DNA from: Halichondria panicea
Taxonomy: Eukaryota > Porifera > Demospongiae > Suberitida > Halichondriidae
Length of the DNA stretch: 64,000 nucleotides
Reading direction: 5' to 3'
Assembly: GCF_963675165.1 (NCBI RefSeq)
Contig: NC_087386.1
Span: forward strand, 3,164,169 to 3,228,168
Shown here: in pieces, positions 17,323 through 64,000 of the stretch
Layout: each line of letters opens with the position of its first letter
Numbering within the stretch: the first letter of the stretch is position 1
Translations under genes and position numbers: made by a program
The notes under the pieces: generated by a model
Told to the model about the DNA's origin: nothing
What the model saw: only the letters and a program-made list of their open reading frames with translations
Database searches by the model: none

Positions 17323-17380
17323 TAGCCTCGAGACCAGGCCGATTAAAATACGTATTTTAATCGGCCTGGATTCGAGGCTA
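17323..17380. mobile_element. 58-bp palindromic mini-element with 9-bp target duplication
   Basis: Starts TAGCCTCGAGACCAGGCC and ends GGCCTGGATTCGAGGCTA; the two halves are inverted copies with a self-complementary centre (AAATACGTATTTTAA). Flanked on both sides by ACTCCTATC (17314-17322 and 17381-17389), a perfect 9-bp direct repeat, showing that it moved as a unit. Confidence 0.88.
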
Positions 17381-17798
17381 ACTCCTATCAGGCTCTGCAC
17401 TAGTCTCGCGAGCAGACGTGGGAGGGAGCGACACTAGCTCTGCCTACTACATGTAGTATTTTTCAACTTCGTTCTATTAAAAAAAAATCGGCCTGGGACC
17501 GTACGGTACCTACTAGATCTATGTAGCCTCAATTCCAGGCCGCTCTTCAGGCTAGTGAAGGATGCTAACTTCTATGCTGCTATTATACCTCTGCTATTAT
17601 ACACCCAGCTACTATGACATCATTAAGAAGGTATGTATATTACTATATAGATGACGTACAATGTACATGGAGAAACAACCAATCAGTCGCCCTCAGTCCC
17701 CTTCCTGATCCTCGCGCACTTGCATATGCGGAGGAATTTGACTTCTAATAATAATAATAACTAGATATTAAACTCTAGGTGTAGTGTGTGTACTTGTT

Positions 17799-21488: not shown

Positions 21489-22029
21489 CCCCTTTCCTTA
21501 CCATTCGTGAAAGTCTGGAACAGGAGCGTCTTTAGGTCGATCAATTAGTGTGGATCCGGCCTCACCACGCCTCCATGTCATTCTATTAGTCTAGATCCGG
21601 CTAGCAATTCTAGCTGGGACTCCCAGTTCTAGCTCCTTTTGTTTAGCGTGTCAGAGACTGGGAGAAGATGATTGTCACTCCCTGGCTCCTTTGGATGTAC
21701 AGCTGTCCAGATCCCTAGAACATACCCTCCATTCTGACGAGTTATCAGTGCATAGGGTGCTTACTAGATTCTTGCCAGCCAGTACAGTTCAAGCTACACA
21801 CAGCACCGCTCAACTATTCTCTACCCCATTATCTAGCTAAATCTGGTCCAACTAGACAGCAGACACAGCTAGTTAATTCAGTAAAGCCAGGGGTAGCTTA
21901 GCCTCGATCCCAGGCCGATCCGTCTCTAATTGAACGCTAGGTCGCCTCCTCGGCCTGGTATTGATTGTATCTGGGCGTGACTTCGTTATTATTATTAAGT
22001 CCATGTGAAATGAAAATTGAATAAAATTA

Positions 22030-22562
22030 ATGATGGCTTCTAAGTTTGTTCTTTGTAGGTTATGTTGCAGCACTGGTGCCATACAAAACAGAAGATATAA
22101 ACATTTGTTCAGCAGTAAGGCTCTCAAAGAAGATATTCCAGGGAGGCTCAGTCTTGCATTGGATCTGCCTGTTAGTGATTCAGATGGCCTGTCAAAGATT
22201 GTCTGTCTTTCTTGTATCAAGAAGATAGAGTCCATAGAGGTGTTCAGGCTCCTGGCCAGACGTAGCTACCAGAAACAAGTGTCCAAAGAGCAGCTCCCTA
22301 GTAGTCCAGTAAGATCAGCCCCTAAGAAAAGGACTAAGGACACGAGTGGTTCCGACGCATCTCCTTTTACTGTGAGCTCGCGTCCATCAGCAAAGAGGAG
22401 TACCATCGGGGTTCGAGGAAAAAGGCTTGCTTTTACTCCTGCACAAAGTAGGAAATTTTTAATGTGATAGTGTTGTAAATAAAATTATTTTTTTAGCTCA
22501 CATTGATGGTCCACATAATGCCAGTGCCTCGACATCATCTGCAATCGCTGTGGAGCTAGAGG
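22030..22562 (+). CDS. ZAD-type zinc-finger protein fragment inside element E1
   Basis: Two exons seen, 22030-22447 and 22497-22562, with a further donor at 22563 and no later exon found. Residues 5-85 carry two Cys pairs, FVLCRLCCSTG and KIVCLSCIKKIESIEVFR, spaced as in zinc-finger-associated domains (ZAD/zf-AD), which dimerise transcription factors in arthropods. A Ser/Lys-rich linker follows (SPVRSAPKKRTK, RPSAKRST). The C-terminal half expected of such a protein is replaced by the RecQ fragment on the other strand, so it is probably truncated by internal deletion of the element. May be the element's own DNA-binding gene or a captured host gene. Confidence 0.7.
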
Positions 22563-22584
22563 GTAGGTCAGAAACTATCCAGTT

Positions 22585-23230
22585 TGCAGCCAACATTGGA
22601 GCACCAGGAGGGGCAAATGCTCTAAGCTCACCTAGGTGTGCATAGGCAGGACGAAAGTCAGAGCTCCTACAGAACATACATAATAATCACAACGGGAGTT
22701 ATTAATAACTTACCACTTGTAAACACAGTGTGCTTCGTCCACAGCTATTGCCACTAAAGAGGAATTGAGTGGAGGCTCTAGTAATAGCATCCTCCAACGA
22801 TAGTCTTCAACAACAGCCTCTGGGGCAGTGAACAGCAGACGGTACTTTCCATCCGACACATCTTTGTTAGTGGCAACAAGACTTCTGTCGATTCCCTTAT
22901 TACTACTGAGGATGGGAAACACCTCTAGTGTTCAGACTCCTGACCTGGTCAATCATGAGAGACACAAGGGGAGAGATGACAAGACTACACTTCTGGCGAC
23001 AAGAGGACCCTTAGTCCTACCAAGCTTGTAGTCCATCAAGAAGGGTAGCAATTGATAGCACAGAGACTTGCCATACCCAGTTGGGAACCACACAAAAACG
23101 TCCCTTCCTTCTGACAGGAGCTTGAGAGCACGGACCTGCTGTTCCTTGAGGATCAGTCCTTCTTGCTTCACACAAGACAGTACATATGCTAATGCTTCTT
23201 GGATATCAAAGACGTTGAAATTGCCATAGT
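22585..23230 (-). pseudogene. Broken RecQ-type helicase fragment inside element E1
   Basis: Minus-strand frames together resemble the first half of a RecQ helicase core: LKEQQVRALKLLSEGRDVF, Walker A FPTGYGKSLCYQLLP, motif Ia SPLVSLMIDQVRSL, TAPEAVVED, DEAH box VAIAVDEAHCVYKW, then across a GT-AG intron (22713-22667) SSDFRPAYAHLGELRAF. Two frameshifts break it, near 22983 and near 22925, and it stops being RecQ-like after APMLAA, before the ATP-hydrolysis motifs of the second domain. It cannot make a helicase. RecQ-like genes of this look travel with some invertebrate transposons, so capture or ancestral cargo are both possible. Confidence 0.82.
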
Positions 23231-23475
23231 AGTATAGCTAGCTAGCTTTACGGAGCTATTCATGAGATTACAATTACTTTTACGGAGTAGGTGCTCATAC
23301 ATACACCATTAGTGTTAAGTCGCTCAGGAATTCGCTCTTTTTTAGCGAATACCTGAGCGAGGTGGAGCCAATAAGAGCACGCCCAGATACACGCCCAGAT
23401 ACAATCAATACCAGGCCAAGGAGGCGACCTAGCGTTCAATTAGAGACGGATCGGCCTGGGATCGAGGCTAGGGGT

Positions 23476-24235
23476 TAGACTCGCAAGCCACTCCCTTTTC
23501 TCTGATTGGACGGGGGCGGGAGAAAAGGGACTGGTGACTCTGGGACACATTTTGTGTCTCTACCAGAATTTGGGTAGAGATTATTCATTGATTTTTCCAC
23601 GTGATCCAAAAATTGCGTGAGGTTAAGTAGAATTGCGTAGCCTGCAAAAGTGATCGCGGGCTTCTTAGCAACAGTTTAAGAATGGATGCTAGTGCTAGAA
23701 AAGAGAAGATGATGGAGTAATAACATCATCAGGCATTCAGCTAGGATATAGTCATCTAAGACACCAGCAGAGATTAGCTTGTTTTAGTTTTACGTGATGA
23801 GAACTGGCAGCCGAAAGTCATTGGTTGCCTAAAGCTTTTAATAACCTGTACAATACAAGACAGATAATGGCAGACGGCAGCAGTTGAATTGAGAGTAGTC
23901 AGACTTGTACAAGCTGTCTTAAATCCCTGCCACTCCTCGGTTCAAAGGACTGCCAAGATTTCTACGTTCATCAGCTGTTCCATGCTAATCCACAAGTTGT
24001 GGCACAACAGACACTGGTACAAGGATCTATAAAATCAAAAGGCTGGCTAGATAGATCTGTATACTTGTCTTCTGTGTGTCTTTAGCTTTTGACGCATCAG
24101 AATAAATTGGATAATCTGCACGTGACATTAATATTTAATAGCATTCCTGATTTACACAAGCTGTAGCCCACAGTCACCAGTCCCTTTTCTCCCGCCCCCG
24201 TCCAATCAGAGAAAAGGGAGTGGCTTGCGAGTCTA
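23476..24235. mobile_element. 760-bp TIR element E2, inserted at the border of E1
   Basis: Begins TAGACTCGCAAGCCACTCCC and ends with its reverse complement (GGGAGTGGCTTGCGAGTCTA); the inverted ends extend about 60 bp through the GGACGGGGGCGGGAG block and TGGTGAC. Flanked by GCTAGGGGT at 23467-23475 and 24236-24244, a perfect 9-bp duplication spanning the E1 border. No coding sequence recognised inside. A relative lies at 39894-40185. Confidence 0.9.
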
Positions 24236-39555: not shown

Positions 39556-39893
39556 GTTTGCCTGCTCTAGATTCAAGGTATAATAACTATAGAATGAGCA
39601 TAATAGCTAGGAGCACATGATATATAGCCCAGGGAGGTTGTAATCATTAATTTTAGTATTCATTGGATGAGGGCCAGACACTCGGTCGTTGTAAAAACTT
39701 CAGCCCATGCCACTTAATAATACCCACCAGAAAATTCTACCCGATACTTCAAAAAGGACACTGAATTAGAAGTTACAGAATTAGACCCCCCAAAAAATCA
39801 AAACCATGCACACACAAAAACATACCCTCGAGAAGATCATTGAGATCTATACCTGTGCACAAAATCATACCCTCCAAACGTCACACCCCCCCC

Positions 39894-40185
39894 TAGTCTT
39901 GCAAGCCACGCCCCTTCACTGAAAGAAGGGTCTGGAGTAGCCTCGAGACCAGGCCGATTAATTTTAATCGGCGTGGTCTCGAGGCTAGGTCTGGAGTTGT
40001 TCCTGTGGAATTTAATTTAGATTAGCTATCAGCATGCCAATATGTGGGTGTGATTGTGTGTGTGGTTTTAAGATATGAGTGGGTGGACAATGACGTTTCA
40101 GAAATCTGCAATCTGATTGGTAGCACCAACACTGGCACAGATAACAACTCCTTCTTTCTGTGAAGGGGCATGGCTTGCAAGACTA
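39894..40185. mobile_element. 292-bp TIR element, relative of E2
   Basis: Begins TAGTCTTGCAAGCCACGCCC and ends GGCATGGCTTGCAAGACTA; inverted ends of about 35 bp including TTCACTGAAAGAAGG. The terminal TAG.CT.GCAAGCCAC matches E2 at 23476. No matching target duplication is left. Interrupted by the 50-bp palindrome at 39938. Confidence 0.82.
39938..39987. mobile_element. 50-bp palindromic mini-element with 9-bp target duplication
   Basis: TAGCCTCGAGACCAGGCC at left, GGCGTGGTCTCGAGGCTA at right, centre GATTAATTTTAATC. Flanked by GGTCTGGAG at 39929-39937 and 39988-39996. Same family as 17323-17380 and as the ends of E1. Confidence 0.9.
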
Positions 40186-40967
40186 GGGGGTAGCAGGGTT
40201 TAATCTAGGGGGGGGGCTGGGGTGAACCTTCCCCCCCAAAATGCTCATCTTCCCCCCAAAATGTTCATATAATAATGACATCATCACATGAGTACTGTCT
40301 ATGATGTGGAATATGTAACTAGATCTACTATGATGCACTAGCATGTAATAGGGGGTGTGGTCAACAAATGTGGGAGTGGCCAAACATTTTGCGGCATGCG
40401 TAAACCTTCCCCCCAAAACTTTTAATCCTAGATGAAACCCTGAGTGGTAAACGTTTTGGAGGTTATGATTTTGGTATTGTTTCTGATATGATTTTCTGGG
40501 GGGTCTGTTTTCGTGTGTGCGCAGGTATGATTTCCTCGAGGGTAATGATTTTTGTGCATGGGTGTATTTTCTCTGTTTAACTTTTGGGTATGATTTTCTG
40601 GAGTATACTTTTGTGGGGGACTGATTCTGCAAATTCAGCAAATTCAGTGTCCTTTTTACAGTGTCAGCATATTTAGGGTAGCATTTTCTGGTGGGTATTA
40701 TTGTCACTGATTATATTCCATAGGCTAAGGGCAAGCCAACTTAATTACATGCTTCACGGATGCAAGCAGGTATCTTTTTGTGAAAATAAAAACTACCCAC
40801 TCCATAGTCTTATAAGGCTTATTTGTTACCACAACTTACAAGTGTGGTTTGGGAAGCCTAACATTCTTTTTTTTACTGGCATGCCTGGTCCATAAATAGT
40901 TTGTGAAAATGTGGCTTGGCCTAAATTTGGGCATAGATTTTAACTCTTGGGGGTATATAGGGTTGGT

Positions 40968-43849: not shown

Positions 43850-45970
43850 GTTTGTTCTAGCATAGATAGTAATTATAGTAGACTAGTCCTCAACTTAGAC
43901 TACATGTACTATCTATGGTTCTATAGTCATCTAGAGTCTAGTTGGGCAGAGCCAAACCTGCATGGCAGTAGGAGAACACCCTTTTCCACATTAATTAAGA
44001 TTAATTTATTATGGCTGAACCAGTATAAACTCTGGCTGATAATTAATTAAGGACATGTAGACATGTTCTACGAATAAGAAAATCATAATGGACAACCCTT
44101 AGGGGAAGTTAGAGTTCTTCAAAATCGATATTAATTTTGTGTGATTTTAAACTGTGCTCTTGAAACCAGGACAATACATTCAAATTTTGCACATTCTGAG
44201 TACCGTAGTTGATGTAATTACAGCGCCACCATATAAACTTAAGTGTCAACTCAGGCTGAACGCAATTATTCAGGTCTTTAAAAAAGCGCCAACGGATAGC
44301 GCTTATAGCCTCCTTCACAAGGCCTCAGGCCTCTCTTCGAGGAAGAGCGGCCTGGAATCGAGGCTAATAAAAAGGCTGTGATGACTAATTAATAAGGCAG
44401 TCAGCTTTTAGTAATACTGTTGTCCTATAATAATTATTATGCACATGCGTTGCATAATCGTATGTCATGATGCGGTATCAGTGACTGGAGAGTGTACAGT
44501 ATGCTGTTGCTGTATCAAGAGTATTATCTACTCTTGTGTATAATGATCTAATTGTATGATGATCAGTGACTGGAGAGTGTACAATTAATTCGGTATCACA
44601 TCTGGTCCAAGTAATTGCAGCGTGTCGTCATTTACAGAGTGCAATTATTTGTGAGTAATTGCACGTCGTCAATGACAACATGTAGTGTTTTCGAATAACA
44701 GCCGCGGCTGAAAATGTGCAGATAACTTCTTCATAATTATAGGTATTGTTATACTCGTGCAATAAGGGATTAATAGTGTTCAATACATAACAAGCACTGG
44801 TACACTCGGCTACGCCTTGCCGTTGCTCGTGCTATTAATCCTATAAAATTGTTGCATTCTTAGTCTACTAACTGTCTAGATGCAGCTGCATGTAACATAC
44901 AGAGTGTAATCGTATGATTGACTGGAAAGTGTACAGTAATTAATTCCGTATCACATCCGATCCAAGTAATTGCACGTCGTCATTGACAGAGTTTACTTGT
45001 CGATTAATTGCAGGTTGTCATTGACAGACAAAAGTGTAGACAATCAAACTACAGCTAGTTTAGTGTCTCTTAGTATAGCCTTGCCATTGCTTGTTACTCG
45101 TGCCCATTTGTATTTTAACCATAATAAAGTCTAACTGTCTAGATGCAACTGTGAGACCAAAAGTCAAACAGTAGCCACTTGCGTACTATGCTAAGAGATT
45201 GCACTAGACACTAAACTAGCTGTAACCAGAGAGCTATAGCACAGCATACTCGGATATATATATACATGTATAGTTGAGCGTGGCCCGACCTTCTGTTAAA
45301 AAAGGAGGTTGGGGTTCTAAAAATGCGCCACTGCATGCAAAGGGGAATTTTTTTCTGGCTGTAATTCGATTTAATTACATGTACTTAGTCTATTGGATGC
45401 GCATTACTTTACACGTACTCTACGTATTAATGTCATTATTCCCTAAAATTATACAAATTAAAGCGCCAGAAAAATTTCCAGGAACGAGGCTAATGTAGAT
45501 AAAACTGCAACCCATTTTACTCGAGCTTTTGTTCTTTGTCGACAATCGATAAAATACAACACGGTATTAATTGGAAGAAGAAATAGAAGTAAAGTTAATG
45601 TCCATCATTTTCTTATTCTCTGCCTCCCATAATCTCTACATGTAGCTCGATCATTTATATTGAGAGCTAGACAATAATAAGAAAAATATAAGCCTGGGGA
45701 CAAGGCTAACCCTTTACATGTAAAAGTAGCATTATAATTACACAGATATTCATGTACCTGTTTGCAATGGCATAACAACATCAATTATAAATAAAACAGC
45801 ACCGTATACTGTCGGTATTAAATAAAACTCAGTGAAAATCTAGAGTTGCAGCTAGCTAATCATGAGTCTGCACAGTGACACATCTTTATACATGAAAAAT
45901 CATACAATAAATATGTTTAAAAAGCACGCATACACGCACAACACTGTTACGAACTATAAATTGTGTCGTA
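43850..45970. other. Intergenic region with repeats
   Basis: No gene seen. One end of the TACCGTAGTTGATGTAATTA element at 44202, a TAGCCTC...GAGGCTA hairpin at 44321-44367, repeats of GTGACTGGAGAGTGTACA and AATTGCACGTCGTC between 44470 and 45030, and the segment shared with 26400-26510. Confidence 0.5.
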
Positions 45971-62903: not shown

Positions 62904-64000
62904 AAAGAGATAGAGCCAAATAACCTCTGGACAATAAATTGGGGAGTATAAGTAGGAGTTAGGTGACTGGCTGAATTAAAAATGATAATGTTATAAATTC
63001 ATACTAAATCTAGCTCCGGTGTACAGACATAATTAATTCAGTCATTGTGCATGTAGCTATAGCTAGAGTCTACTGCAGACATGTGCAAGTAGCTAGCTAT
63101 TATATCAAGTCTATACTGCAGACAATGGAGAGTCTACTACTTAAAACTAGGCTGGCTAGCTTTCTACTTATTTAGTAGAGTGATCAGGCAAGAGCATATC
63201 TCATTTTAGCCTCGATCCCAGGCCGATCCGTCTCCAATTGAACGCTAGGTCGCCTAGAGTAAACCACTGAAGATCAGCCACCATGATAAATCGGCCGCTC
63301 GTACGCCAACACAGCACTTGCAAATTGATTTATTTTTGCTACTATATAGAGCTCTTGATGTGATGTTCCTATGAGCCAAACGAGACTTGCAACCAACGTT
63401 GTGTTCCGGAGTTAGAGTTAACTTTCCAGCGCTGCCGAAAGTACATATATTCAGCCAATTGCATGTATTTCCGGCACAACGATCTTCTCTAGAGTATGGA
63501 GGCACGATCCAGCTAAGATTAACTTCTAGTAGTAGCTAACTATGTCTACTAGCTGCATGCAAAATATGAAACTATGTGAAACTCTGTGGTGCAGCTGTTC
63601 CGCTACTAGCCACGCTTTTTTCTCACAAATCTACCGATTGAAATTCGGCCACGCCCCATTGCAGGTTATAACATCATTAGCCTCGACTCCAACCGCCCCA
63701 ACTATTATAAACAGCAATCCTCAAAGATTATATGGTAACACAGACAAAATAGACAAAATAGACTACAAAAAGAACATAAAAACAATAAACAATATTATTA
63801 TTACTACTGGCTACACGACATACAAAACCATGTTTTTTGAGTATCATTAAAAACAGCGTTCGGAATGTTTTCGCAATCCTGGTGGTACCATTTACTGCAA
63901 CTGTCACATGACGCCATATCCCCAAACCTCGATGTGACTTCCACATCAGAATATCGGCAACTACAGTATACAGGAACCTGCGTTTTTGTGACTATTGTCT
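62904..64000. other. Right end of window
   Basis: No gene supported. A solo E1 end (TAGCCTCGATCCCAGGCC) lies at 63210-63257, broken off after AGGTCGCCT. The short open frames here look random. Confidence 0.5.

Follow-up and report, generated by a model that had tools for sequence, protein, structure and literature searches.

A shortened, non-autonomous element from a transposon lineage with a helicase in Halichondria panicea, and an apparent record of excision

The element at positions 21899-23470 of a 64,000-nucleotide stretch of the Halichondria panicea genome (the whole of which is called the window here) raises the question of what kind of transposon holds a ZAD domain and a RecQ-type helicase between inverted ends. 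The first-pass annotation offered two answers: an undescribed transposon type that uses a helicase, or a Mutator-like element that had captured genes. We find that this element (E1) is a real transposable element, but a shortened and non-autonomous one; it is a shrunken member of a lineage of transposons that carry a helicase, and by published features this lineage is most likely AcademH. The features of E1 are as follows.

21890-21898, no strand: left target duplication, degenerate, GGGGTAGCT (exact 9-bp duplications are found in 9/14 siblings)
21899-21979, + strand: left terminal inverted repeat (TIR), 81 nt, from inverted-end comparison
21910-21916 and 21952-21958: arms CCAGGCC and GGCCTGG, separated by a loop, of the terminal palindrome in the left TIR
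22033-22467, + strand: ZAD (zf-AD) ORF, the first coding exon of the transposase-type gene, from the ORF and Pfam
22495-22587, + strand: the ZAD gene's second coding exon, of which only the start remains before the deletion junction (the exon continues in the sibling L044)
22584-22587, no strand: internal-deletion junction; compared with the longer sibling L044, 4 bp overlap here (microhomology)
22588-23237, - strand: 5' fragment of the RecQ helicase gene, with Walker A, DEAH, an intron and the start of the next exon; frameshifted
23390-23470, - strand: right TIR, 81 nt, from inverted-end comparison
23471-23479, no strand: right target duplication, degenerate, GGGGTTAGA

The annotation had reported 80-bp inverted ends flanked by a 9-bp target duplication. 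The ends are there, 81 nt each and 99% complementary, whereas the duplication of the window copy is not: its two sides agree in register at only 5/9 positions. Among the 14 siblings with both ends the duplication is exact (9/9) in nine and 8/9 in one more, and the repeated family, the paired ends and these sibling duplications together establish a TIR transposon. The ZAD-like gene is likewise real, being an open ORF with a Pfam zf-AD match (E = 5.2e-7; 30.3 bits, above the cut-off of 28); its description as a zinc-finger gene holds for the ZAD domain, which is the sole such domain, and no C2H2 zinc fingers were seen in E1. The RecQ fragment lies convergently on the opposite strand and is decayed, with an intron, as had been described: it reads Walker A (FPTGYGKS), DEAHCVYKW, the intron and then SSDFRPAYAHLGELRAFAPPGAPMLA, with frameshifts and stops.

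In the 131 Mb genome (39 contigs) the E1 family comprises eight near-full-length copies of 97-98% identity and many partial ones. One longer sibling, L044, is 96-97% identical to E1 and retains RecQ up to the zinc-binding region together with the C-terminal tail of the transposase. Relative to L044, the ZAD side of E1 is fused to the RecQ side at the 4-bp overlap; E1 keeps its two ends and the 5' exons of the two genes but lacks the middle. As L044 retains the lost parts, E1 is an internal deletion and no host gene was captured. The middle was lost through a deletion with 4-bp microhomology, after which E1 multiplied, presumably with transposase supplied in trans; no autonomous copy more than 95% identical to E1 was found in the genome. 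A second deletion derivative of ∼790 bp (L055-L057, at C6:447450, C7:7179560 and C2:7224000) has one E1-type end and one differing end, a RecQ fragment without ZAD, and 9-10-bp duplications; protein matches suggest that this family has many copies.

Protein searches of the genome with the ZAD and RecQ pieces of E1 located its relatives. The annotation had suggested looking for longer copies that combine ZAD and RecQ with a transposase; relatives of this make-up are complete at four loci, with exact 9- or 10-bp duplications.

L033, 977-6619: 5.6 kb, duplication GTGTTTACC twice, 9 bp
L035, 915-7006: 6.1 kb, duplication CCTCGCGCCC twice, 10 bp
L037, 1908-8260: 6.4 kb, duplication CATCATCAT twice, 9 bp
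L038, 1268-7088: 5.8 kb, duplication TGCCGGCCT twice, 9 bp

These 5.6-6.4-kb relatives all share the TAGCCTCG inverted termini with E1; at a fifth locus, L034, the left end is present together with the two genes. The first gene of L033 encodes zf-AD and then DUF6589 (1.9e-15, 2.7e-31; Pfam scan of the exons), and the opposing gene encodes DEAD, Helicase_C and RecQ_Zn_bind (Pfam); the zf-AD match of L033 scores 21.1 bits, under the cut-off of 28. The arrangement recurs outside the E1 family. Among the matches listed, DUF6589 lies within 13 kb at 23 of 35 ZAD loci, every time downstream on the same strand (23/23), and RecQ is present at 15 of the 35, every time downstream on the opposite strand (15/15), against chance expectations, also from the listed matches, of ∼0.4 and ∼0.2 loci, respectively. 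With RecQ in the full-length relatives and in this constant position, the helicase is part of the transposon system, as the annotation had supposed.

A search for DUF6589 gave 92 matches here and zero across 14 control genomes, and a search of viral contigs for relatives of the transposase found nothing. The DUF6589 parts from five loci are mostly 50-58% identical in pairwise comparison (L034 and L035 are 94% identical), and these partial sequences have in common the motifs FVGDNV, GD..T.ER and, where present, NEH..N. From their conservation, the motif residues are likely to be the catalytic D, D and E, and DUF6589 is the candidate catalytic domain of a putative DDE transposase. The ZAD and DUF6589 exons are predicted to be spliced into one mRNA, and the ZAD domain may bind the element ends or dimerise. 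What looks like a different type of DUF6589 element is found at L059 (C9:1649200-1654400, with the DUF6589 protein at C9:1650827), which has an intronless reading frame of more than 1500 amino acids with a DUF6589 match; similar long frames occur at C14:4797543 and C3:3629098.

The full-length element measures ∼6 kb, starts with TAGCCTCG, has 9/10-bp duplications and carries a ZAD-DUF6589 gene convergent with a RecQ gene. AcademH is a lineage of the Academ superfamily (Kojima 2020). According to one account, AcademH makes duplications of 9 or 10 bp and AcademX of 3 or 4, a difference that is related there to the encoded helicase and nuclease (PMC10045372); this and a second account describe a helicase encoded beside the transposase and place AcademH in animals and fungi (PMC10045372, PMC10799480). 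Because a helicase with 9/10-bp duplications is the published AcademH combination, E1 most likely belongs to a known kind, and the idea of an undescribed transposon type is probably wrong. We put the probability at roughly 0.85 that E1 is non-autonomous and derives by internal deletion from a two-gene DNA transposon of the AcademH kind, likened to AcademH by published features. Taken alone, E1 is an ordinary deletion derivative; following it brought to light two-gene helicase transposons that are largely intact. The more interesting and unexpected result is the apparent excision record of the lineage, which, if read correctly, would reveal how an unstudied transposase cuts DNA; neither a transposase gene that begins with a ZAD domain nor tip-to-tip remnants are mentioned in the AcademH literature that we searched.

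This record consists of very short elements in which two element tips face each other. The window contains 11 matches to the TAGCCTCG ends, where 0.01 would be expected, and three tip-to-tip forms stand out.

17323-17380, no strand: tip-to-tip remnant, 58 bp, formed by related element ends; duplication ACTCCTATC, exact over 9 bp
17524-17567, no strand: 44-bp tip-to-tip remnant, other end type, 7/9 duplication
39938-39987, no strand: tip-to-tip remnant, 50 bp; duplication GGTCTGGAG, exact over 9 bp

The genome holds ∼200 such micro-elements of 46-125 bp, and the 9-bp duplications are mostly intact where checked. The core pattern of the 17323-17380 form occurs at 178 sites (reversed control, 0); 20 of these were fetched, a few of which have flanks in common and count as duplicates of a single event, and all 19 that could be scored have duplications matching at 8-9 of 9 positions (one at 8/8). 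Where a micro-element site lies in a segmental duplication, the sibling shows a clean empty site. A scan of 319 kb (the window and the loci) for two facing TAGCCTC ends no more than 130 bp apart and with a duplication gave tip-to-tip remnants in at least five end families and none in shuffles. The tip of E1 itself is found at 18 pattern sites in the genome (control, 0); ten E1-type junctions at ten independent target sites with good duplications are all different, two with apparent templated filler. Three further observations belong here: at window 44306-44366, a 61-bp tip-to-tip form with a different end type and no clear duplication; an unrelated short element, with inverted arms of 41 nt (95%) at window 39889-39929 and 40150-40190, inside which the 50-bp micro-element lies; and a 76-bp near-perfect palindrome (TAGACTCG...) with an exact 9-bp duplication, GTAGCTACC, at L007 593-668, which is a tip-to-tip form of another end family.

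The position of the break within the tips is constant in one respect. Each element end forms a palindrome, CCAGGCC-loop-GGCCTGG, and the remnant tips stop just before its inner arm, regardless of the length of the loop. The tip is 29 nt in the L038 and L033 types, with the inner arm of L038 at 30; in the E1 type it is at most 54 nt, the break falling at 53-54 nt and the inner arm at 54. Among L038-type sites in the genome, a pattern search found none with the inner arm retained, whether at both tips or at a single one. Parent elements of ∼600 bp with the same asymmetric ends are present at L083 and L084. The E1-tip pattern spanned at most 15 bases between the arms and so cannot alone exclude longer E1-type tips; the exclusion of longer tips rests on the inner-arm patterns for the L038-type ends and on the size scan of the 319 kb. 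Some trimmed L038-type remnants gave tip lengths of 36-37, an artefact of matches to the opposite arm and not real long tips. Elsewhere in the window (63207-63256) a lone E1-type end breaks off at about nt 50, near the inner arm, and is followed by unrelated DNA; this is perhaps a one-sided scar.

The P element cleaves one strand at its terminus and the opposite strand 17 nt further in, a stagger described as atypical (PMC7776569). By analogy, we infer that the remnants could be excision scars left by an unusually long staggered cut. Our proposal, which is tentative and held at less than even odds, is that an AcademH-like transposase makes a stagger of 29-∼54 nt set at the inner palindrome arm rather than at a fixed distance, that RecQ is needed to unwind it, and that end joining left the ∼200 scars. 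In this scheme, held with less confidence than the kind of transposon, one strand would be cut at the terminus on excision and the other 29-54 nt inside, just before the inner arm; RecQ would unwind the stretch between the two nicks, and fill-in and end joining would leave a tip-to-tip scar between intact duplications. A stretch of this length is not expected to melt alone, so the helicase of the element would have a function.

That the micro-elements are instead ordinary self-transposing micro-MITEs, which would replace the excision part only, is a serious contender, although we hold it at somewhat less than even odds. They are clean inserts, with empty sites in duplicated siblings, and 31 of 50 L038-type sites among those listed are exactly 58 bp (29 + 29), the commonest form, as a single mobile master would give. 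Against this, the E1-type junctions differ from one target site to the next and include templated filler, the tip-to-tip structure recurs across different end families, and the inner arm is lost throughout the L038 type. The copy-specific junctions argue against micro-MITEs for the E1-type remnants, and less so for the 58-bp class. The literature searched offered no reason for the presence of a helicase gene in certain cut-and-paste transposons. Were the scars excision products, they would fix where the inner cut lies in several end types and would give the helicase a concrete, testable job.

Three other readings bear on what E1 is. It is improbable that the lineage is a separate superfamily outside Academ that independently paired a DUF6589 transposase with RecQ, as the case of Kolobok and KolobokH might suggest. 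The likeness to Academ is judged here by published descriptions, and the helicase is not diagnostic because KolobokH, a Kolobok lineage reported only from fungi and with its helicase placed downstream of the transposase, also carries RecQ (PMC9587614). Nor can orientation alone separate Kolobok from the E1 lineage, since a rhodophyte Kolobok has its RecQ on the complementary strand. What speaks for AcademH over a separate superfamily is the joint occurrence of helicase and 9/10-bp duplication, reported for AcademH (PMC10045372).

A second reading, that E1 has been retained as a functional ZAD-only repressor of transposition in the manner of truncated P-element repressors, is very unlikely. In its favour, most copies have an open ZAD ORF; several copies have stops or indels, so that openness fits youth, and among clean copies the changes are near neutral (unique dN/dS of 0.82, from small numbers: ∼6 synonymous and 17 non-synonymous). 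We rejected a selected repressor on these grounds. Long TIRs with 9-bp duplications also occur in Mutator-like elements. Capture of fragments of two host genes (a ZAD factor and RecQ) by such an element or another TIR element would account for the truncated gene pieces and for those features of the E1 family, and it is scarcely credible: the siblings do not carry unrelated gene fragments, as simple capture might have given, and instead all share the same two 5' gene ends, part of the deleted middle is visible in L044, both genes lie convergently between like ends in the full-length relatives, the 23/23 and 15/15 ordered associations contradict it, and nothing points to Mutator, the Pfam scan of the transposase-like exons in L033 having found DUF6589 but no MULE model. 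Gene capture was rejected on the shared content and on L044.

Set beside known systems, the AcademH-kind element that we favour resembles Mutator-like elements (Pack-MULEs) in its long TIRs and ∼9-bp duplications, and differs in that no MULE domain was found and its internal genes are its own. With KolobokH it shares a RecQ helicase within a transposon; here, in contrast, the helicase gene is convergent and the target duplications are 9/10 bp. The likeness to the P element would lie in the donor site: a cut of that kind would leave element tips there, and the remnants here fit such a cut. The differences are that the stagger would be 29-∼54 nt and set by the inner palindrome arm, that a helicase is carried, that the target duplication is 9 bp whereas that of the P element is 8 bp, and that Pfam found no P transposase domain on the exons scanned. 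The closest agreement is with AcademH: relatives of E1 have a helicase gene beside a transposase-type gene, the duplications are exact at 9, 10, 9 and 9 bp in the full-length relatives and 9 bp in the siblings of E1, and terminal inverted repeats are present in E1 and the four relatives. The transposase enters this comparison under the Pfam label DUF6589 only, with its motifs GDNV, GD..T.ER and NEH..N, and E1 itself differs from AcademH in being non-autonomous.
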